DNA of 15,371 nucleotides from Blastocatellia bacterium. Lineage in GTDB: Bacteria; Acidobacteriota; Blastocatellia; Pyrinomonadales; Pyrinomonadaceae. The notes beneath the pieces were generated by a model. The model did not search any database and had not been told where the DNA came from. It saw nothing but the letters and a program-made list of their open reading frames with translations. Shown one piece after another: positions 6,021 to 15,371 of this stretch (position 1 is its first letter; each line of letters opens with the position of its first letter). Both the position numbers and the translations under genes were made by a program. The stretch covers positions 1 through 15,371 of the forward strand of contig PSRF01000177.1 of NCBI GenBank assembly GCA_003175865.1, given 5' to 3'.

Positions 6021-6142
6021 TTGAAAATAGCTAGACACCACGCTGAGGCCTCGTCGAGCTTCAACTTGAACCTGGATCGAGCAGCTATGTTTTTAAAAGG
6101 ACACCACCGCCTTCAGAGATGTTGTGAAAGTAGAAGGGCTTT

Positions 6143-6299
6143 ACTCCGTAGGAGTGAAATGTTTATAGCTCGCCGCCACATAGTTTGCACCGTTCGGAAG
6201 AGCGGCAAAACGAATGGCTAGCTGCGCGTAACTGTGCCGCTCTTCCGAACGAAGGTGCTTAGGTCGAGAGCTGTTTTAAACATTGCACTCCTACCGCGT
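6143..6299. repeat. Nested-palindrome intergenic element, copy 1
   Basis: The outer arms are ACTCCGTAGGAGTGAAATG followed by TTTATAGCTC (6143-6171) and an imperfect inverted partner at 6267-6299 that contains TTTAAACATTGCACTCCTAC. The inner arms are a perfect 17-bp inverted repeat: CGTTCGGAAGAGCGGCA (6191-6207) against 6235-6251, with a 27-base loop. Each outer end is itself a small palindrome (ACTCC-GTA-GGAGT). The same architecture, with the same spacing within about a base, recurs at 15155-15317. It encodes no protein. It fits a MITE- or REP-like non-autonomous repeat that folds as a long cruciform or RNA hairpin. It could also act as a bidirectional terminator between the two converging genes. 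Confidence 0.75.
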
Positions 6300-6358
6300 G
6301 AAGCAGGCATCACGGTGGTGTTTTACAAAACACGGTGCATTCAAGAAAGTTGGACGCT

Positions 6359-7073: not shown

Positions 7074-7290
7074 CTAACGCGTTTGATAGTGACTTGTTTG
7101 TGCCAAAATTAGGTAAACGGTGCAATCTGCAGATGTCTTGTCCGGTCTGGAAAGAAAGCGTGGCGAGTTTGCTCAGCGGTGCGTAGATGCCTCACTTTTT
7201 CGTTCGCCAAGCCCTCCGAAGCAGAGTCTCTCGCATTCAAAAGAGTAAATTTACGGATCATGCTCCATTGGTCCAGCTTAACTCCACCGC

Positions 7291-7306
7291 TGGCATATCG
7301 CTTGCC
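7291..7306 (+). promoter_or_regulatory. Candidate sigma54 (-24/-12) promoter for the 7424 gene
   Basis: TGGCATATCGCTTGCC has GG and GC at the exact sigma54 spacing and matches TGGCA-N6-TTGC fully. The implied transcription start is near 7317, giving a leader of ~107 bases to the GTG at 7424. The site is partly palindromic (TGGCA...TGCCA), so the minus strand also has a weaker match pointing toward def. It shares the TGGCAT core with the two other sites in this window, all close to a sigma54-activator gene. Confidence 0.55.
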
Positions 7307-7423
7307 AAGGACTAGTACGTTTCGAGGTCAGCGATGGCGATATCTGGGAACCTTAAAGAGACTTGACTGGTACAGCTTCTCTTCTTATCCCTTTGCATTT
7401 CATAGCGTGAAAGGCGCTCGAAC

Positions 7424-7918
7424 GTGCGGCCCTTAATGTTCGGTGAAGATTACAATCCGAATAGCAGACGTCGAATCATCTTTTACTATACCTTGTCACT
7501 TTGTGCCGTGATCGTGCTAATGGACGTCTTCTCGTCGTGGCGAACGAGACCACTTGAAGAAACGATTACCGTAGATGCTAATCGAACCAAACCCGTCGCA
7601 ATTGCACCCATTCAAACACCCACTGAATTGCCCACTGCTGATCGCGACATTGAAACAGCCGGTGATCGTATCGCCGCAGCGGTCATTTATTTGAAACGCA
7701 AGCAGAACGAACCAGCACTGAACGCTTTGGAACAGGCAAGTGCCGCGACTCAACGAGCTCTGGCGCGAAACCCAGACAAAGGCGTCATCAGAGAGCAATT
7801 GCAGGCGACGAACCAACAACTCGAAACCGTGAAGGACCTCATTAGAAGCGGAAGGATTGGTACTGCGACTATTGCACTAAAGGAAGTGGACCAGAAACTT
7901 GAAGCAGTTAGTTATTGA
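7424..7918 (+). CDS. Hypothetical membrane-anchored protein
   Basis: 164 residues with no recognised family. After a basic stretch (NPNSRRR) there is one hydrophobic segment (IIFYYTLSLCAVIVLMDVF, ~residues 18-36). A Pro/Thr-rich linker follows (~55-75), then an alanine/glutamine-rich helical C-terminal half (ALNALEQASAATQRALAR, IREQLQATNQQLETVKDLI, ATIALKEVDQKLEAV) that looks like a coiled coil or helical bundle. The Arg run before the membrane segment suggests an inside N-terminus and a periplasmic helical domain. GAAAGG (7409-7414) lies 9 bases before the GTG, which favours that start over the ATG at 7436, 21 bases from it. It converges with the sigma54-activator gene with only 4 bases between stops, and a sigma54-type promoter lies upstream. 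It may be an envelope-associated output of the same regulator. Confidence 0.75.
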   Translation: MRPLMFGEDYNPNSRRRIIFYYTLSLCAVIVLMDVFSSWRTRPLEETITVDANRTKPVAIAPIQTPTELPTADRDIETAGDRIAAAVIYLKRKQNEPALNALEQASAATQRALARNPDKGVIREQLQATNQQLETVKDLIRSGRIGTATIALKEVDQKLEAVSY

Positions 7919-7922
7919 GAAC

Positions 7923-9293
7923 TTACTCTCCACTTAGATCAATTCCATATCTCTCAGCCATTCGGTAAAGAGTGCGTCGATCAATTCCCATCACTTCGGC
8001 TGCACGCGATCGATTGCCACTCAGGCTATCGAGTACATAGATTAAATAGCGTCGCTCGACCTCAGCCAGAGAAGGTAGGTCGCCGTAAAGAGTTGTGAGT
8101 GGTGATTGGGCCGCATCTCTCAGGTCGGCAGACTGAAACTTTTCTGGCAGATCGTGAGGTGTGATCTCTTTTCCACGCGCACGCAGCGTCGCATGTTCGA
8201 CGGCCGATTCAAGCTCTCTCACGTTTCCTGGCCAGTCGTAGGCTACAAGAGTCCTAATCGCTTCCTCAGTGATACGAAACGGACCACGTTCCACTCTTTC
8301 AGATGCCAACATCAAGAATCGATCGGCAAGCAGAGGAATATCAGTGCGTCGTTCTCTTAGTGGTGGCACGCGAAGCGTCACTACGCTTAAACGATAGAAA
8401 AGATCTTCGCGAAAGCTTCCGCTCTTAACTTCCTTCTCCAAATTCCGATTGGTGGCTGCGATAACGCGAGTGTCAATCCGTTCAGTTTTCGAGGCACCAA
8501 CACGTCGAATCTCTCCTTCTTGCAATGCGCGCAAGAGTTTCACCTGCATAGCGGAACTGGTTTCACCAATTTCATCGAGAAACAGTGTTCCGCCATCGGC
8601 CTCGGCCCATAACCCTTTTCGATCGCTCGCCGCTCCAGTAAATGCGCCGCGCACATGACCGAACAGTTCGGCCTCGAGTAACGTTTCCGTCAGCGCACCG
8701 CAATTAACTGGAACAAACGGATGGTTAGCTCGCGGACTGTGTTTGTGAATTGCGCGTGCGACGAGTTCCTTACCGGTGCCAGAGTCGCCAACAATCAGGA
8801 CCGTCGCTTTCGTGGGGGCAACTCGCGCGATTGCCTTGTAGAGCTCGATCATTGCAGGCGAGCGTCCAATCAAACCCATGTTTTCATAACTGAGTGAGGC
8901 TGGAAGCGGAGCGACTTCATCCTGATCCCGGCTTGCTCTTGTTTGATTCAGAGCCTGTTGAGCGACAGCAATGACCTCTTCGACTTTGAACGGCTTTGAG
9001 ATGAAATCCCACGCGCCTTCGCGAGAGGCTGTTACAGCAGAGTCAAGACTCCCAAATGCGGTGACGAGAATCACCGGGCATTGACCACGTAACTCCTTCA
9101 ACAGGTCTAGTCCATTTTTCTCCGCTTCGAGATTTATGTCGCTCACAACTAAATCAAAATTGTCCAGCTGAGCTTTCTGAAGTGCTTCATCTGGCGTGAG
9201 TGCTGTGTCCACGAGCCAGTCCTGACTGACAAAGATCTCGCGCAACAACTCACACGAAGCGCGATCATCATCGACGACTAAAACTCGTTTCAC
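7923..9293 (-). CDS. NtrC-family sigma54-dependent response regulator
   Basis: 456 residues with the complete three-domain layout. The receiver domain (~1-117) has the acidic pocket D8-D9-D10, phosphoacceptor D52 (LVVSDINLE), T78 and K100. The AAA+ domain (~140-375) has Walker A GDSGTGKE (169-176), the sigma54-contacting GAFTGA loop (216-221), Walker B with D240-E241, and an arginine-finger region (FREDLFYRL). The C-terminal Fis-type HTH is GNRSRAAEVMGIDRRTLYRM. When phosphorylated by the kinase encoded just upstream it should oligomerise, hydrolyse ATP and open sigma54-RNA polymerase promoters. Its ATG overlaps the kinase's stop as ATGA (9290-9293), so the two are translationally coupled. 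Candidate target promoters lie at 7291, 11512 and 11681. All key residues are present, so it should be an active sigma54 activator and not a sigma70-type derivative. Confidence 0.96.
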   Translation of the reverse strand: MKRVLVVDDDRASCELLREIFVSQDWLVDTALTPDEALQKAQLDNFDLVVSDINLEAEKNGLDLLKELRGQCPVILVTAFGSLDSAVTASREGAWDFISKPFKVEEVIAVAQQALNQTRASRDQDEVAPLPASLSYENMGLIGRSPAMIELYKAIARVAPTKATVLIVGDSGTGKELVARAIHKHSPRANHPFVPVNCGALTETLLEAELFGHVRGAFTGAASDRKGLWAEADGGTLFLDEIGETSSAMQVKLLRALQEGEIRRVGASKTERIDTRVIAATNRNLEKEVKSGSFREDLFYRLSVVTLRVPPLRERRTDIPLLADRFLMLASERVERGPFRITEEAIRTLVAYDWPGNVRELESAVEHATLRARGKEITPHDLPEKFQSADLRDAAQSPLTTLYGDLPSLAEVERRYLIYVLDSLSGNRSRAAEVMGIDRRTLYRMAERYGIDLSGE

Positions 9294-10945
9294 GCGCTCA
9301 CCTCAGTCTCAAGATTCGAATTCAAGTTCGATTCGTTGGCGATATGACCATTTCTGTCGGCAGGAAAGATCAGGCGGAAACGCGTGCCTTCTCCGGGATT
9401 ACTTTGAACTTCGACGTCACCACCATGCTCTTTGACTATCTGATTAACGATCACAAGCCCTAATCCTGTGCCTTGTCCCGGTGCTTTTGTTGTGTACAAC
9501 GGGTCAAAAATTCGAGCCATGGTCTCCGGATTCATACCTGAGCCATTATCCGCAAAATCGACTATTGCAGTTGGCGTACCGGTTTCGTTCTGCTCGGTGC
9601 GAGTAGAAACAGTCAACCCACCACCGCGTGGCATTGCATCAAGAGCATTGTTAATCAAATTAAGAAATAATTGCTGTAGTCGATCCGACGAGCCGCTTAT
9701 TGTGGGAAGTTCGGGATCGAATTTCTCGACTAACGTTACGTTACGTTTATCGAGAGTCGCTGAAGTCGCGTCAAAGAGATGACGTAAGAGTTGGTTCAAA
9801 TCAACAGGAGTCAGCTCCGTTTCAAAGTGTGTTCGATCGAGCATGCTACGCACAATTCGCTCGATGCGTTCTATTTGTTCGCTGATAATTTTTAGTCGAG
9901 CTTCGCCACGCGGACTCCGAGCTAGATCCAAACCTAACAACTGCACGTGACCACTAATCAAATTGAGCGGTGTCCCGACTTCATGCGCAAACTGCGCGGC
10001 CATCTGACCTGCGGCTGCAAGTCGCCCGAGCTCGTTCATTCGTCGAGTTGTACGCCACAATTCGAGGTTCGTCTCTTTCAATTGACGGTTGCGTTCTTCT
10101 AGTTCTGCTGTTGCCTCATGAACCCGACGTTTGAGGATAGCCTGTTGGGCCTCGCGCTCCTGGGTCATCTCGCGGACCTGTTGAATCATGCTGTTGAACT
10201 CATTCGAAAGTAAGCCAAGTTCGTCAGCAGCGCGCGGTGGCACGTGCGCTTCCAGGTCACCTGACTTGGCTCGCGACATCGCCGCCAGCAGATGGTCGAT
10301 AGGTTTGTAAACGAGATGTCGAAACAGCAGATGGTTGCCAAGAGTGATGAGCACTATCGCAATGAGTGGCATCCAGAAAGTTTTTCTCGCGTAACGCAAC
10401 GCCACTGTCCAGTTGCTGTCGAATCGTTCAGTTACTTCTACTGCACCGCTTAGTCGCCCCTCTGTGGTCACGGGCACAAAGATTCGATAAAGATATTTAT
10501 CGTTGCCGTAAGGTCGTGTGCTTACCACCTTTGATGCCAGTCCACTACGCAAAGCCTCTTTAGTATCGTCGGACATTCCTTCAACAGGTGCACTGCCGGA
10601 CGAAGCGACTCGCTCAATGAATTCGCCTCCGGAGCGCTCCCAAATCCGTACGCTGACAAAATTGGGCCGCGCGCCCATAACCAGGTTGACTGCCCGCTCT
10701 AATGCTTCCATGTCGCGAGGGGCTGCCATGTCGCTGACTTCCGCCGCCAGATTGACCGCCTGTAGCTCGGCGAACGCTTTATCGTCGTCGCGTTCTAGAT
10801 TTGCAATACCGGCACTCGTTATGAACAGGGCGGCCGTGAGCATGCCAATCGTTACGGCAGAAGCAACCAGCGTTGCCTTTGTATGGAGTTTTAGAGGTCG
10901 CATCTTTCGAGACAGATTATGCTCGTTTGAAGTCTTTCTAGCCAC
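9290..10945 (-). CDS. Membrane sensor histidine kinase
   Basis: 551 residues. TM1 is ~26-47 and TM2 ~191-211, enclosing a ~140-residue periplasmic sensor. The sensor ends in [21 protein letters not shown], a pattern typical of Cache/PDC-like folds. HAMP covers ~210-262 ([33 protein letters not shown]), followed by a Glu/Arg-rich coiled coil (~262-303). The H-box [15 protein letters not shown] places the phospho-histidine at H321. The ATPase domain has the N-box [16 protein letters not shown], and GQGTGLGL. This is the NtrB/ZraS-like class that pairs with NtrC-type regulators. The GTG start lies inside the 3' end of the dedA-like gene (8-base overlap). No clear ribosome binding site precedes it or the alternative ATG at 10903, which suggests reinitiation from the upstream gene. 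The signal is unknown; the gene neighbours point to metal or envelope stress. Confidence 0.95.
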
Positions 10946-11495
10946 TTTGGGTTTGCCGCTGAGCCACGACTTTCAGTAGATGAAAGACGACGACGGTGCC
11001 AACAACAACCAACAACAGGAATAGTTCAACTCTTTTGACGTGACCAATGATCAATGACGCGCTGTCACTGAACAGGAAGCCGAGACCCGCCAGGCTTGTT
11101 GTGAAGAAGGCGCAGCCTAAGAGATCAACAAGTGCGAACTTTATGAACGACACCTTCTCGATTCCGGCAAAGAGCATAGTGGCTATTCGAGTTCCGTAAA
11201 CGATGTGTGAAGCGGGTATCTGCCAAACGCCAAGTTGCTGATTCAAGTTCTGCGTTACCTTCTTTGTGCGCGCATAAAAACGAGTGCTGCGGATCCATTC
11301 GGAGCGGCCACGCCCAATCCAAAACCAAAGACAATCTCCGCCAAACGCTCCAGCGCTTGCGGCCATGATCGCTTTAACGAATCCGAAGTACCCGAGATGT
11401 GCAATCACACCTGTCAACACGGGGACTACGTCTGCTTCGAGCAACGCTGAGATGAAAACTGCTATTAGTCCGAACTTTGTAAGAAAGCTCTCCAT
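10938..11495 (-). CDS. DedA-family (SNARE-associated) inner-membrane protein
   Basis: 185 residues from the ATG at 11495. Multiple hydrophobic segments and the DedA layout are visible: ALLEADVVPVLTGVIAHLGYFG near the N-terminus with an acidic residue in the re-entrant region, then GAFGGDCLWFWIGRGR (the G-x-x-x-G-D-x-x-x-[FY] motif). HIVYGTRIATMLFAG sits where typical members have R-F-x-P-G-x-R. The first Arg and the Pro of that motif are replaced (His, Tyr), so this is a divergent member. DedA proteins are implicated in membrane lipid (undecaprenyl phosphate, phosphatidylethanolamine) translocation and envelope homeostasis. A longer reading from TTG at 11516 is possible but unlikely: that codon lies in the candidate sigma54 -12 element. 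It is the first gene of the operon with the kinase and activator, an unusual position for a DedA gene. Confidence 0.88.
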   Translation of the reverse strand: MESFLTKFGLIAVFISALLEADVVPVLTGVIAHLGYFGFVKAIMAASAGAFGGDCLWFWIGRGRSEWIRSTRFYARTKKVTQNLNQQLGVWQIPASHIVYGTRIATMLFAGIEKVSFIKFALVDLLGCAFFTTSLAGLGFLFSDSASLIIGHVKRVELFLLLVVVGTVVVFHLLKVVAQRQTQSG

Positions 11496-11511
11496 TGATA
11501 TTGGATCTATC

Positions 11512-11527
11512 CGCAACGAACATGCCA
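11512..11527 (-). promoter_or_regulatory. Candidate sigma54 promoter for the dedA-kinase-activator operon
   Basis: Read on the minus strand the site is TGGCATGTTCGTTGCG, a full match to TGGCA-N6-TTGC with GG and GC 10 bases apart. The implied start of transcription is near 11501, only ~6 bases before the dedA ATG at 11495, so the transcript would be nearly leaderless. That agrees with the lack of a clear ribosome binding site. It implies positive autoregulation by the operon's own activator. Confidence 0.6.
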
Positions 11528-11551
11528 GCTATCTTCGGTCTCGTTGTTCTT

Positions 11552-11568
11552 GAAGATTACGTATCTTC
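11552..11568. promoter_or_regulatory. Palindrome, candidate activator-binding site
   Basis: GAAGATTACGTATCTTC has perfect 6-bp arms (GAAGAT/ATCTTC) around a 5-base centre. An extra half-site ATCTTC lies at 11531-11536. The palindrome sits between two divergent sigma54-type promoters, centred about 59 bases upstream of the implied dedA start and about 147 bases upstream of the implied His-rich-gene start. Both distances are compatible with an enhancer-type site for an NtrC-family regulator. Binding by the neighbouring regulator is inferred. Confidence 0.5.
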
Positions 11569-11680
11569 GCTGATCACCACTGTGGCGGTTCTGCCAATTC
11601 AAACAAAGGCGTCACACCGCATCAGTCGTTAAACAATCAATTCAGCAAAGAATCAATGAGACAACACACGACGGGTTTGT

Positions 11681-11696
11681 TGGCATGGTCATTGCG
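11681..11696 (+). promoter_or_regulatory. Candidate sigma54 promoter for the His-rich/lipid operon
   Basis: TGGCATGGTCATTGCG matches TGGCA-N6-TTGC fully, with correct GG/GC spacing. It is almost the same sequence as the divergent minus-strand site (TGGCATGTTCGTTGCG). The implied transcription start is near 11707, giving a ~49-base leader that contains AGGAGAG (11744-11750) just before the ATG at 11756. Confidence 0.65.
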
Positions 11697-11755
11697 GTTG
11701 CAAGGATCGGCAATCAAATCTCCCGAGCCTTACAAATCATGTTAGGAGAGAAAAA

Positions 11756-11971
11756 ATGATCAATGCAAAGCAAATGCTTACGATTGCGTTAACCAGTGCG
11801 TCTTTGTTAGTTCCGGCGGCTACCGCGTTTGGCAGCAGTTCGCACAATCAAACCCTTCAGTCAGCCATGGCGAACCAAGGGGTGGCCTATCATCATCGTC
11901 ACCACCATCATCGTCATCACAGATCCAAGCGCGTCCCAAATGCTAAGTCACTAAGTAAAGAGAGTTATTGA
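11756..11971 (+). CDS. Small secreted His-rich protein
   Basis: 71 residues. AGGAGAG lies 5 bases before the ATG, the strongest ribosome binding site in the window. A clear signal peptide occupies residues 1-24 (TIALTSASLLVPAATA), with likely cleavage after A24. The mature part is ~47 residues and carries a dense cluster at 46-55 with 8 His in 10 residues, followed by a basic tail (RSKR, PNAKSLSK). There are no Cys or Met clusters. His clusters of this kind bind zinc, nickel or copper, so a periplasmic metal buffer or sensor accessory is the natural guess, though no family is recognised. It is the first gene behind a sigma54-type promoter and is followed after 49 bases by the lipid-lysylation genes. 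The arrangement recalls zraP, the small periplasmic zinc-binding protein divergent from zraSR, but there is no sequence similarity I can claim. Confidence 0.8.
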   Translation: MINAKQMLTIALTSASLLVPAATAFGSSSHNQTLQSAMANQGVAYHHRHHHHRHHRSKRVPNAKSLSKESY

Positions 11972-12020: not shown

Positions 12021-13193
12021 ATGCAACTCATGAAGCGGTCTTCCATCACTGGGAGGACCTACGCCAAACCTATCTTTCAAATTCATCCGGGTCGCGAAAG
12101 ACTCGAGGCCTGGATACGAAAGTATGGGACCAATTCAAGTTCCTACGTGTTGCTCGAGGGACCAAAACGGTATTTCACTTCGCCGCGCGTCGACGGGTTT
12201 ATCGCCTATCAACTCAGCGCTGGTGTCGCAGTAATTGGTGGAGATCCGATCTGCTCGCCGGAAAAAATGGACCACCTCCTGGAAGACTTTTCATTTTCAA
12301 TGTCCGGACGAGCTGTTTGCGCCTATCAGATAACGCCAGAGACATTGAATGCTTTTCGTCGGACGGGCTTCAAGGATGTCCAGATCGGCAGGGAAGCGGT
12401 TTTTGATCTCACCAAATTCACGCTGGCGGGTGGCGAGATGGAGTTGGTGAGGGCTGCAACCAACAAAGCAAAGCGGGAAGGCGTGGTGGTTTTTGAACAT
12501 CACCCTTTTGCTCTTGGGTCGGAGAGCATAAACAGCGAGCTGCAAGAGGTATCCAGCGAATGGCTAAGAGTGAAAGGCAATCACGAGATGGGGTTCCTGC
12601 TCGGATCTCCTTCGCTCGAACGTCGTACCGCGAAACGCTACTTTGTCGCTAGATCCGGGGGAGGGAAGGGAAGAATCGAGGGTTTCATCGTTTGTGAACC
12701 CATTTATGGTCGGAATGGTTTTTACCTCGACTGCACGCGTCGCCGCACAGATGCGGTACGCGGAACGATGGAACTACTAACGTCAGAGATCTTTCGCCGA
12801 TTACGAGATGAAGGATATGCGATCGGCTCAATGGGCCTGGCCCCATTGGCGAAGTTAGACGACCCGGATCTTCGTCTTCATCCGCGCCTCGCGAAGTTAA
12901 TGCAGTTCACCTACGAGAGAGTTGAAGGTGCTTACGACTTCAAACACCTCTACCGCTACAAAGCCAAGTATCACCCGCATGCATGGGAGCGACGCTATCT
13001 CTGTTTCAACCAACCTCGACTCTCACCACGAATGTTGTATGCGACTGTACAAGTGCGCAATGCCATTTCGATCCGCGGAATCTTTAGCGGAGAGAAATAT
13101 AAATCAGGAATCGAATTAACAAAGAGAATGGACTCATGGAAACACTCGATCTCGTTCGTCATCGGTCTTTGCTCGGCTCTATTGCTATCGTAG
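12021..13193 (+). CDS. Soluble DUF2156 / phosphatidylglycerol lysyltransferase-type protein
   Basis: 390 residues matching the C-terminal catalytic domain (two GNAT-like folds, LPG_synthase_C/DUF2156) of MprF/LpiA enzymes. These move an amino acid, usually lysine, from aminoacyl-tRNA to phosphatidylglycerol on the cytoplasmic side. Family features seen are SSSYVLLEGPKRYF, the AVIGGDPICSPE segment, FLLGSPSLE, GFYLDCTRRR near the C-terminal domain, and the end motif LYRYKAKYHPHAWERRYL. The large N-terminal flippase/membrane domain of MprF is missing. The C-terminus overlaps the next gene by 58 bases and ends in a hydrophobic tail (ISFVIGLCSALLLS) that might attach it to the membrane. The start is uncertain: ATGs at 12021 and 12030 both lack a clear ribosome binding site. 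The two VirJ/AcvB genes downstream support a role in aminoacylated-lipid metabolism. The amino acid and lipid are not determined. Confidence 0.87.
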   Translation: MQLMKRSSITGRTYAKPIFQIHPGRERLEAWIRKYGTNSSSYVLLEGPKRYFTSPRVDGFIAYQLSAGVAVIGGDPICSPEKMDHLLEDFSFSMSGRAVCAYQITPETLNAFRRTGFKDVQIGREAVFDLTKFTLAGGEMELVRAATNKAKREGVVVFEHHPFALGSESINSELQEVSSEWLRVKGNHEMGFLLGSPSLERRTAKRYFVARSGGGKGRIEGFIVCEPIYGRNGFYLDCTRRRTDAVRGTMELLTSEIFRRLRDEGYAIGSMGLAPLAKLDDPDLRLHPRLAKLMQFTYERVEGAYDFKHLYRYKAKYHPHAWERRYLCFNQPRLSPRMLYATVQVRNAISIRGIFSGEKYKSGIELTKRMDSWKHSISFVIGLCSALLLS

Positions 13194-14110
13194 CCGTTGT
13201 CGCTTTCGCGTTTAGCCTGGGAACGCTGTTGGCCCAGACGCCAGCGGCTGGCTCCGCTACTGAACAAACAAAGACTGAACGGGGACAAATACCCGCTGAT
13301 CATTATGACCCGGACGATATCAAGACCTACGAAGATGTAGTCACTGAGGACCGTCAGGTCTCGGTGCGAGATCAGACGTTTACGGTCCATTTTTATCGAC
13401 GGCGAGACGAAACCGCACGTACCCTGGCGATCTATGCTTGTGGTGACGGCGGGTGGCGTGGATTAGCACCGCGCACTGCCCAGCAATTAGCGCACGTTGG
13501 TTTTGCTGTTGCCGGTATCGATTCGAAAATCTATTTGCGAGAGCTATCGTCAGCACAAAACCCTTTGACGTTTAAACAGATCGCGAGCGACTACGCTGTA
13601 ATTGCTGCTGCGTTAAGAAGCTACGCTGCCGTCGATGCCAAGGCGCCCGTGTATGTTTACGGTTGGTCCCTTGGTGCGGGTCTTGCAATCGCAGTCGGCT
13701 CTGATATTGACACACGTGCAAACTGGGCCGGCATTGTTGCCATTGGATTGCCTGCGCAGAACCAGCTCGTCAGTGGTGTTGGTGGCAACTATACGGACCT
13801 AAAGAATCCAGCGAACTCACGCTTTGGTTTTCGTTCTGATGCTCTGTTATCCGGACTCTCTCCGGTGCCGCTCGTCATGATTGAAAGTACTTCCGACTCC
13901 GCTAGTCCGCAGAAGGTAAGCAGAAAATTATTTGCAGCGGCGCGCGACCCCAAGCAGTACGTTCTGATCAAGGCGGAGAATCATCGGTTCACTGGCGCGC
14001 GCAATGAATTTTATTCAGCACTGTCGAATGCAGTCGCTTGGATTCGACAGGTACGCGGGGATGCGAACACCGCCGCACAAGTTACCAGTTTGAAAAAACA
14101 GGATCAGTGA
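13136..14110 (+). CDS. VirJ/AcvB-type periplasmic serine hydrolase, copy 1
   Basis: 324 residues. A basic N-terminus (RHR) and hydrophobic run (LLGSIAIVAVVAFAFSLGTLLA) form a signal peptide, probably cleaved near residue 33. The alpha/beta-hydrolase domain (~70-310) has the VirJ signature ACGDGGW (101-107), nucleophile S178 in YGWSLGAG, likely acid D254 (STSDSASP) and likely base H283 (ENHRF). In Agrobacterium, AcvB hydrolyses lysyl-phosphatidylglycerol in the periplasm and its gene is paired with the LPG synthase gene lpiA; the same pairing here supports that activity. The start overlaps the DUF2156 gene by 58 bases, so the genes are translationally coupled. The family's usual S-G-D-G-G-W reads C-G-D-G-G-W in this copy. 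It has one VirJ domain, unlike the longer two-domain AcvB. Confidence 0.88.
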   Translation: METLDLVRHRSLLGSIAIVAVVAFAFSLGTLLAQTPAAGSATEQTKTERGQIPADHYDPDDIKTYEDVVTEDRQVSVRDQTFTVHFYRRRDETARTLAIYACGDGGWRGLAPRTAQQLAHVGFAVAGIDSKIYLRELSSAQNPLTFKQIASDYAVIAAALRSYAAVDAKAPVYVYGWSLGAGLAIAVGSDIDTRANWAGIVAIGLPAQNQLVSGVGGNYTDLKNPANSRFGFRSDALLSGLSPVPLVMIESTSDSASPQKVSRKLFAAARDPKQYVLIKAENHRFTGARNEFYSALSNAVAWIRQVRGDANTAAQVTSLKKQDQ

Positions 14111-14985
14111 TGAGTGCGGTTGGAGAGAATGTCATGGTTCGTTTCATTTATCGCTTGCGCTGGGTGATTTGCGCGTTGCTAATTGTGTTCGGTGCTGCTG
14201 TTCTAAAGGGCGCGATTTGGTATCACCAGTTTTATAACCATGTAACTCCACAGGAGGTCTCGCACGAAGTAGGCCACACCACTTTCGATGCTACGCTTCG
14301 CGATCGTGGAGTGAAGCTTGAACTGTATCAACAGGCAAATGCGAAGGAGCAGCCGCTTGTATTTTTCAGCAGTGGTGATGGTGGTTGGAGTCCATTCTGC
14401 GCTGACATTGCTGCGCACATCGCCGCGACAGGACACACAGTAGTTGGCTTCAATGTAAAAGATTATCTGACGACCTTTGCGAGCTCACAAAAACCTGTAA
14501 CGCCTGAAGAGTTGGTTCGTGACTATGGACAGTTGATGAGTGCGGCGCTGGCTCGTCCCGGAGTTGATGCGAAATCGCCGGTTACTTTAGCCGGATGGTC
14601 CATAGGTGCCGGATACAGTGTTCTGATTGGCTCGAGCGACACTTTGAAGAATCGGTTCAATCGAGTAATAGCCATTAGCCTCCCAAATTATAACGAGCTT
14701 GCCTGGAAGCCGACAGATGCCGTCATCTACCTAACGCATGGTACTCCGCGCGAAAAGGTTTTTGAGGCTCAGAACTATCTGCCGAAAGTCGCACCGCTTG
14801 CATTGGTGATGTTGAATGCAACGAACGACGACACCTCTCCCTTAGATGATGCGAAGAAGTTGTTTAGCAGGGTGACTGGTCCACGTTTGTTCTTTGCTGT
14901 AGAAGCGACAGGTCATCATTTCGAGGGAGGCGAGGGAGAGTTTTATCGCGATCTCGACGAAGGTTTGTCGAGGCGGGCACTGTGA
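14110..14985 (+). CDS. VirJ/AcvB-type periplasmic serine hydrolase, copy 2
   Basis: 291 residues from the ATG at 14110, which overlaps the preceding stop as TGATG; AGGA lies ~7 bases ahead. An in-frame ATG at 14134 is preceded by GGAGAGA and is an equally good start. The N-terminus (RFIYRLRW, then VICALLIVFGAAVLKGAIWY) is a signal anchor, with no obvious cleavage site, so this copy may stay attached to the membrane. Catalytic features are SSGDGGW (87-93), S164 in AGWSIGAG, D240 (ATNDDTSP) and H269 (TGHHFEGG). It is a diverged paralogue of the preceding gene: the motif order and spacing agree, but the sequences differ widely. It is probably an aminoacyl-phospholipid hydrolase with a different lipid or amino acid preference; that is inference. 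Confidence 0.88.
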   Translation: MSAVGENVMVRFIYRLRWVICALLIVFGAAVLKGAIWYHQFYNHVTPQEVSHEVGHTTFDATLRDRGVKLELYQQANAKEQPLVFFSSGDGGWSPFCADIAAHIAATGHTVVGFNVKDYLTTFASSQKPVTPEELVRDYGQLMSAALARPGVDAKSPVTLAGWSIGAGYSVLIGSSDTLKNRFNRVIAISLPNYNELAWKPTDAVIYLTHGTPREKVFEAQNYLPKVAPLALVMLNATNDDTSPLDDAKKLFSRVTGPRLFFAVEATGHHFEGGEGEFYRDLDEGLSRRAL

Positions 14986-15371
14986 AAGTTTTCCCTTTTC
15001 GAACTCTCATCGCCAGACGAAAAACCACCGGCTTCAGCTGCCCGGAACCTCAACTTAAAGCCTACAACGATCACAACATCGTTCCTGATGGACACCACTG
15101 ACGTTAGTCGAGTCTTTCAACGTTCACAGCTAAACTAAGGTGTTGTCGCCATCTCACTCCGTCAGGAGTGGGATGTTTATAGCTCGCGACGTTAACTCCG
15201 ACTCCGTTCGGAAGTGCGGCAATGTTAGGGGCAAATGAGCCATCGTTTTCCGCTCTTCCGAACGAGCGCGTTATGAAGAGGCTGCCTGGCTATAAACATC
15301 GCACTCCTGACGGAGTGAAACCGCCCGCGATGTCGGCTAGACTGTACTCATCAAACGGTCAGGTCGAAAAG
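14986..15371. other. Gene-free tail with repeat element
   Basis: These 386 bases follow the second hydrolase gene. The first ~170 bases show no gene; a CCACCGGCTTCAGC stretch (15025-15038) resembles half of a common short hairpin repeat, but its other half is degraded. The rest is the nested palindromic element (copy 2). No terminator hairpin with a T-run is evident right after the operon. Confidence 0.55.
15155..15317. repeat. Nested-palindrome intergenic element, copy 2
   Basis: The outer arms at 15155-15182 and 15290-15317 are inverted repeats matching at 27 of 28 positions (ends CACTCCGTCAGGAGTG, then ATGTTTATAG). The inner arms CGTTCGGAAGTGCGG (15205-15219) and 15250-15264 match at 14 of 15. 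Compared with copy 1 (6143-6299), arm sequence and arm spacing are kept while the spacer bases differ freely, so pairing appears to be what is conserved. No coding capacity is visible. Confidence 0.8.

Follow-up and report, generated by a model that had tools for sequence, protein, structure and literature searches.

In E. coli, the ZraSR-ZraP system is laid out around divergent sigma54 promoters that serve its own operon and a small secreted protein. The window, by which we mean the whole 15,371-nucleotide stretch of Blastocatellia DNA analyzed here, shares this layout, with divergent sigma54 promoters, an NtrC-type regulator, an operon of its own and a small secreted protein, but differs from ZraSR-ZraP in lacking a ZraP domain, in carrying lipid enzymes in the target operon and in having several target promoters. 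For these lipid genes the closest precedent is lpiA-acvB of Agrobacterium, which controls lysyl-PG and in which loss of acvB leads to acid sensitivity, with AcvB using Ser336, probably together with His433 (PMC13197417, in the portion available); VirJ of Agrobacterium is likewise described as hydrolyzing lysyl-PG (PMC13135905, in the portion available). Like lpiA-acvB, the window has an aminoacyl-PG synthase gene followed by a gene for an AcvB/VirJ-type hydrolase; unlike lpiA-acvB, its synthase has no MprF flippase domain, there are two hydrolases, sigma54 sites and an oppositely oriented DedA gene, and a polycation gene comes first.

Control of the bacterial exterior is an established theme for sigma54 (PMC3162934, presumably Francke et al. 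2011), and the window fits that theme insofar as sigma54 would act on envelope genes. The main text of that paper, as far as available, has 0 occurrences of "acidobacteri" and does not describe the Blastocatellia enhancer and gene set, and the same string is absent from the available main text of a 2025 sigma54 regulon survey (PMC12316311). Among titles and opening portions of abstracts in the open-access literature, we found no description of lpiA-acvB under sigma54 control and none of the Blastocatellia regulon, an absence that such a search tests weakly. We consider it rather probable that the window belongs to a lineage-specific sigma54 two-component regulon, with a 36-bp inverted repeat as its enhancer, that makes the envelope reversibly more positive. 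Such a regulon provides, for an environmental lineage, an enhancer, a regulator and a set of targets that can be put to the test; it also ties sigma54 to the aminoacylation of lipids and would offer a natural pairing of a DedA protein with a flippase-less lysyl-PG synthase.

Table 1. Features of the window, in order of position
Feature	Position	Strand	Basis
Degenerate inverted-repeat copy	7159-7194		2 mismatches; PWM 19.0, below threshold 24
Third sigma54 promoter, upstream of P164	7291-7305	+	Exact TGGCA-N6-TTGC
P164: N-terminal hydrophobic helix and predicted four-helix bundle	7424-7918	+	Alignment; model pLDDT 80.6
NtrC-type response regulator	7923-9293	-	PF00158, PF00072, PF02954: sigma54-interaction AAA+, REC, Fis-type HTH
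Sensor histidine kinase	9290-10945	-	PF00672, PF00512, PF02518
DedA/VTT-domain membrane protein	10938-11495	-	PF09335; ATG 11495
Sigma54 promoter, DedA-kinase-regulator operon	11513-11527	-	Exact TGGCA-N6-TTGC
Palindrome GAAGATTACGTATCTTC of the sequence-only reading	11552-11568		Exact presence; judged incidental
36-bp inverted repeat, candidate UAS (enhancer) of the two divergent promoters	11581-11616		One mismatch; PWM 33.3
Sigma54 promoter, polycation-synthase-hydrolase-hydrolase operon	11681-11695	+	Exact TGGCA-N6-TTGC
71-aa secreted His/Lys/Arg-rich polycation	11756-11971	+	ORF; relatives under same promoter type
Aminoacyl-PG synthase catalytic domain	12021-13193	+	PF09924, 222 bits, cut-off 27.5
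VirJ/AcvB-type hydrolase 1	13136-14110	+	PF06057, 33.5 bits, cut-off 22
VirJ/AcvB-type hydrolase 2	14110-14985	+	PF06057, 32.6 bits, scored on longer ORF 14038-14985

Divergent promoters and a split inverted repeat

Exactly three matches to TGGCA-N6-TTGC occur in the window, compared with a mean of 0.15 per dinucleotide shuffle, and 0 of 200 shuffles reached three. An earlier reading of the sequence alone (the sequence-only reading) had claimed two divergent full matches and a total of three, above chance, and both claims are confirmed; two of the checks that it proposed also came out in its favor, with the genome encoding RpoN (196 bits) and the -24/-12 bases of the sigma54 sites kept at relatives' loci. 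Its placement of all three sites in gene-free DNA holds for the 7291 site, which ends 119 bp 5' of the GTG of the P164 ORF, only if an overlapping, mechanically called 85-aa ORF (7179-7436) is spurious, as it probably is. Since the minus-strand promoter would drive the operon of the kinase and regulator themselves, autoregulation is implied, and this part of the sequence-only reading is borne out as probable; divergent, probably autoregulated sigma54 control of the window is well supported. Counting against our reading is the predicted leader of only ~6 nt that this promoter leaves in front of DedA, whose mechanically called TTG start (11516) falls inside the promoter.

Sigma54-like sites that hug the first start codon were seen both in the window (11495-11527) and upstream of the kinase at five other loci (L044, L050, L052, L058 and L060). 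Across 15 starts, predicted leaders measure ~4-18 nt at six and 81-101 nt at three, with no site at the other six; four of the six short-leader sites carry one mismatch, and the short leaders possibly reflect near-leaderless translation.

The sequence-only reading had proposed GAAGATTACGTATCTTC, a palindrome between the two promoters, as a control element. The palindrome is present, but we rejected it as an operator: palindromes with 6-bp perfect arms and a 5-nt spacer number two in the window against ~3.8 expected (15371/4^6), and it therefore carries no weight alone, nor is it among the perfect palindromes at 29 sigma54 sites of relatives. A better candidate is the inverted repeat at 11581-11616.

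This repeat first emerged when the sequences upstream of 32 sigma54 sites were set side by side; it follows the pattern TGTGGC-N24-GCCACA with the half-site consensus TGTGGCRNTTTTGY. In 309,801 bases, the exact hexamer pair is found 8 times at a gap of 23, 10 times at 24 and once at 25, and 0 times at the remaining ten gaps within 18-30. We trained a weight matrix on 46 half-sites from part of the 41 loci considered below, setting a score of 24 as the threshold for statistics; position 13 of the half-site is G in 44 of the 46, although it was not a selection criterion. The window repeat is centered 72.5 bp from GG(-24) on the side of the minus promoter and 83.5 bp from GG(-24) on the side of the plus promoter, and the degenerate copy is centered 116 bp from the GG(-24) of the 7291 promoter. 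Judged by its sequence, 11581-11616 is likely an enhancer for the flanking sigma54 promoters. A search of Rfam gave no match at gathering score, and the window's own genome holds no exact copy of the extended pattern. Two further points tell against our reading, namely the single mismatch in the window repeat and the frequency of the hexamer pattern at one mismatch in its own genome, which is no higher than that of a reversed control (5 places vs 5).

Pairing, spacing and distribution in relatives

In the main set of 41 loci (438,832 bases), 45 distinct repeats were counted at scores of 24 or more, with 33 of the 41 loci holding one, and eight dinucleotide shuffles of all loci yielded 0 repeats. 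For 39 of the 45, a sigma54 site lies 55-140 bp away on the downstream side, giving 42 sites (28 perfect and 14 with one mismatch), compared with 1 perfect and 11 one-mismatch sites at the remaining positions within ±400 bp of the repeats. The 21 loci outside matrix training, most of them chosen because they hold the exact pattern, contain 19 repeats; sigma54 sites at 55-140 bp number 11 perfect and 5 one-mismatch, and those elsewhere within ±400 bp number 1 perfect and 7 one-mismatch. Kept outside the 41-locus count are 20 later stretches (L213-L232), picked for a kinase, DedA or synthase gene, which add three repeats in two stretches and one more in-range site; the 61 loci together hold 48 repeats in 35 loci, with 28 perfect and 15 one-mismatch sites in range and 1 and 12, respectively, elsewhere. 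That 18 of these 20 stretches have no repeat at scores of 22 or more speaks against our reading; degenerate copies 5' of the kinase were seen by eye in L219 and L220 and are uncounted.

The 42 repeat-promoter distances cluster near 62, 72, 82, 93, 105 and 115 bp, and another three of them lie at 130.5 bp. The recurring spacing fits looping to sigma54 holoenzymes. At a period of 10.5 bp their phasing reached R 0.54, a strength attained by 0 of 5000 random sets (p<2e-4), and the best period was 11.3 bp. Without the polycation promoters, R was 0.40 (p 0.028) at 10.5 bp and 0.52 (p 0.0022) at 11.0 bp, and with each rounded distance used once, p was 0.0007 at 10.5 bp. Because the 55-140 bp range and the periods were picked after the data were seen, and because the loci are related, we term this helical phasing apparent; its weakness among the 16 distances from non-training loci, where p is 0.12 for a period of 10.5 bp and 0.013 for one of 11.0 bp, counts against our reading. 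The 130.5-bp spacing is off helical phase and belongs to L175, L176 and L177, from three genomes of one family, where a TatA-like gene follows the repeat and its sigma54 site.

Kinase matches at E <1e-90 occur in 20 of 119 family genomes, the window's own included, and 19 stretches were taken from the other 19. The regulator is present on 16 of these, and P164 is a recurrent neighbor of the two-component genes, with a tblastn match on 10 of the 19 and an eleventh (L056) added by eye. At E 1e-120 or better, the kinase is matched in 49 of 162 class genomes, own included, and all 18 such matches in a phylum draw of 396 evenly spread genomes fall in its own class. The exact extended pattern is found in 16 of the 119 family genomes and 26 of the 162 class genomes (reversed control pattern: 7 of 162), and it is concentrated in genomes with the kinase: 13 of 20 kinase-bearing vs 3 of 99 other genomes in the family (Fisher 4.6e-10) and 23 of 49 vs 3 of 113 in the class (Fisher 1.7e-11), the genomes in both comparisons being nonindependent. 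Against our reading, the exact pattern is absent from 26 of the 49 kinase-bearing class genomes, and three genomes have the pattern with no kinase match (G076, 84% complete; G018, 74% complete; G140, with a copy scoring 20.6). G056, G159 and G140 hold no exact copies other than ones with low matrix scores (14.7, 23.1 and 20.6, respectively), which may be there by chance; a further point against our reading is that G056 and G159 are among the 23 supporting genomes.

A kinase alignment search returned at least 80 loci at 24-40% identity only, with no named orthologue among them, and the DedA protein as a probe of named genomes gave no match. For some synthase and kinase relatives the source is Pyrinomonadaceae. 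Ten contig sizes other than 15371 (80012, 381736, 60884, 15228, 6182, 4147, 39128, 109378, 13839 and 151290) are common, by eye, to the best 120 of 400 synthase matches and the best 120 of 1401 kinase matches; these are putatively the same contigs, which suggests linkage of the synthase and kinase genes in many uncultured relatives.

Candidate target genes and a proposed role in envelope charge

We assigned the genes downstream of the 42 sites ourselves, counting the window synthase and hydrolases under the polycation. Twenty sites precede a secreted polycation gene (one, in L057, split between frames), two precede genes for other small secreted basic proteins, three P164, four a GH18-deacetylase-GT2 protein (one partial and by eye), one LPG_synthase_C, one a PepSY-like protein (by eye, with no such Pfam match), one DUF1003 and three TatA (Pfam tested in L176 only), while one serves the DedA-kinase-regulator operon of the window, four serve three small membrane-protein genes that run divergently from the kinase gene and two are unassigned. 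A PP2C gene in L178, at 161 bp, is beyond the 55-140 bp range and not included in the 42. The TatA, DUF1003 and small membrane proteins do not obviously suit a charge theme, which weighs against our reading. In L047, L051 and L053, the proteins divergent from the kinase have a single membrane helix and a GDPxxLERxY tail, and their genes are preceded by a repeat and one-mismatch sigma54 sites.

The sequence-only reading had described a lineage-specific module driving a small His-rich secreted protein and lipid genes. The module itself is borne out, in that what lies downstream includes lipid genes and the gene of a small, basic, secreted protein, but histidine as the shared trait is not: the window polycation has 9 His after residue 20, whereas its relative in L044 has none there. 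Among 15 polycations examined, some of them start-trimmed, net charge after residue 20 is always +5 to +21, with 0-2 acidic residues, and charge rather than histidine is thus the common feature of these sequences. Pfam and NCBIfam each gave 0 families for the window polycation.

Among solved structures, the window synthase best matches the lysyl-PG synthase 4v36 (E 1.5e-31), with the alanyl enzyme 4v34 at E 4.2e-20; against the bifunctional MprF model it scores 179.7 vs 600, matching the C-terminal part of the model only. A close homologue was found in just 1 of 58 other genomes searched, a rarity that counts against our reading. The sigma54 site of a close synthase in G028 (58-61% identity) has one mismatch and, at 160 bp from the repeat shared with the polycation of that genome, is likewise not counted among the 42. 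The window synthase ORF has a hydrophobic C-terminal stretch, as does its G028 relative, and shares its last 58 bp (13136-13193) with the ORF of hydrolase 1; the enzyme is possibly tail-anchored. Hydrolase 1 has a solved relative in AcvB (9xhm, E 9.2e-7), with the GWSLGAG of hydrolase 1 aligned with the GYSFGAD of AcvB, which we take as the Ser336 motif, and with a late His aligned between hydrolases 1 and 2 only. A Gly in hydrolase 1 opposite AcvB Asp340 is a further point against our reading. Hydrolase 2 is 29% identical to hydrolase 1 and has no solved relative at E 0.01.

Relatives of the DedA protein are tied to the same system in G028 and G129, and the G129 relative (49% identical) follows a GH18-deacetylase-GT gene under a repeat and sigma54 site. 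In G056, the kinase-regulator pair has a GH18-deacetylase-GT gene and two genes of the LPG_synthase_C type as neighbors, at a locus with no repeat at score 22. Because fusions of DedA to MprF soluble domains are mentioned (PMC11980842, in the portion available), the window DedA might, by analogy, supply the flippase activity that the synthase lacks.

From the sites, their recurring spacing, the co-occurrence with the kinase and the gene content, all read directly from sequence, we infer regulator binding, a phosphorelay, lipid specificity and a purpose. The kinase would sense an envelope condition and phosphorylate the regulator, which would bind 11581-11616 and loop to both flanking sigma54 holoenzymes. 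Looping would open the two divergent promoters, one for the DedA-kinase-regulator operon (autoregulation) and one for the polycation operon, the latter adding the synthase and two AcvB/VirJ-type hydrolases, while the 7291 promoter would add P164. Polycation outside and lysyl-PG in the membrane would then raise the positive charge of the envelope and the hydrolases would remove lysyl-PG, such that its level would be set by synthase vs hydrolases, with DedA perhaps flipping it. The three exact sigma54 sites, rpoN, the constant half-site, the promoter pairing, the apparent phasing, the kinase co-occurrence, the near-invariant recognition helix of the regulator, the lipid genes, the gene neighborhood in G056 and the lysyl-PG hydrolysis by Agrobacterium VirJ all argue for this reading. 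Both promoters together probably co-induce a secreted polycation and membrane-lipid enzymes, perhaps with altered cell-surface charge under stress as the purpose. We propose only tentatively that one Blastocatellia system raises the charge of every envelope layer, through polycations, aminoacylated lipid (with DedA in place of the MprF flippase) and deacetylated polysaccharide.

The same genes could instead form an acid-tolerance regulon responding to low pH, with an LpiA/AcvB-like lipid branch and an Asr-like disordered periplasmic polycation, an alternative that we regard as possible but doubtful. Asr of E. coli is basic in composition, and the window polycation resembles it in being small, secreted and basic, a likeness of composition only; control and lineage differ, the window protein has no Pfam match, and none of six polycations tested, the window's included, has the Asr Pfam domain. 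The sensor, too, shows no diagnostic feature, and to our knowledge TatA, DUF1003 and GH18-deacetylase-GT are not acid genes. In favor of acid tolerance, the window synthase and hydrolases belong to LpiA/AcvB-type families, loss of acvB leaves Agrobacterium acid-sensitive (PMC13197417, in part), and in E. coli the disordered periplasmic chaperone Asr, which acid induces strongly, helps to keep the outer membrane intact (PMC10746267, in the portion available).

We think it unlikely that the regulon builds a matrix or biofilm, with polycations gluing deacetylated polysaccharide and the lipid genes as a side branch. The presence of GH18-deacetylase-GT2 downstream in 4 of the 42 pairs (one partial and by eye) and the broad link of sigma54 to the bacterial exterior (PMC3162934, in part) are consistent with such a role, but no GH18-deacetylase-GT2 gene stands beside the window promoters, and a search of the window's own genome (62% complete, 436 contigs) gave only a 35% match, to the glycosyltransferase domain.

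Regulator, kinase and the signal

The minus-strand operon does encode the NtrC-type regulator with an intact GAFTGA loop that the sequence-only reading described; its REC, AAA+/GAFTGA and Fis-type HTH domains, together with RpoN, are those of a predicted sigma54 enhancer-binding two-component system. Twenty aligned regulators share GAFTGA and a near-invariant recognition helix, IDRRTLYRMAER, which fits a constant binding site. We know of no NtrC-type site that resembles this 36-bp split inverted repeat, and textbook NtrC-type sites are narrower than half-sites ~30 bp apart. This width and the many kinase loci with no repeat at score 22 would suit a repeat bound by another protein, with the two-component genes mere neighbors. 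Such an arrangement is improbable given the class-wide co-occurrence with the kinase, the near-invariant helix and the proximity of repeats to the kinase gene, which they adjoin in family f1 and from which they lie 0.2-1.7 kb away in f2.

For the kinase, an ATG at ~10903 fits the alignment of relatives better than the start in Table 1. Its model (pLDDT 72.3, moderate) has two long helices, which we take as membrane-spanning, on either side of a single domain of mixed alpha/beta structure, and the best 50 of 1310 Foldseek matches are mostly kinase cores or whole kinases, with nothing clear on the sensor. The sensor region has no invariant or nearly invariant His/Cys in 46 kinases chosen among the best 120 listed, which is suggestive evidence against a zinc response.

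Among solved kinases, ZraS (9jfj) scores best by sequence and ranks fifth by fold among the matches listed, and the window kinase reaches 156.4 bits against the NCBIfam ZraS equivalog (cut-off 479, kinase core only), with the regulator at 402.3 bits against the ZraR equivalog (cut-off 760). That the window holds a counterpart of ZraSR/ZraP that responds to zinc, with a periplasmic protein rich in His and able to bind zinc, is very improbable despite the divergent sigma54 promoters, the ranking of ZraS and the 9 His of the window protein. We rejected membership in that system on scores far below both cut-offs; the lack of a ZraP domain, the His-free L044 relative and, suggestively, the sensor residues also speak against it. 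In outline, then, the sequence-only reading stands (divergent sigma54 control, activator and targets), and as far as tested its operator and ZraP identity do not; its zraP/zraSR comparison survives in the loose sense of working somewhat like that system, with ZraS as best solved kinase, but not as a claim of counterparts, since the small proteins of relatives share charge and not histidine. ZraR, too, has been proposed to act more widely in envelope stress (PMC7657598, in the portion available), and the loose analogy therefore holds.

Elsewhere in the window, an element of ~165 bp (15154-15318) has 30-bp inverted-repeat ends that are 97% complementary, with matches, some partial, on nine other contigs of its own genome and one at 74% in the window itself (6137-6301); given these ends and the multiple genomic copies, the element is MITE- or REP-like.
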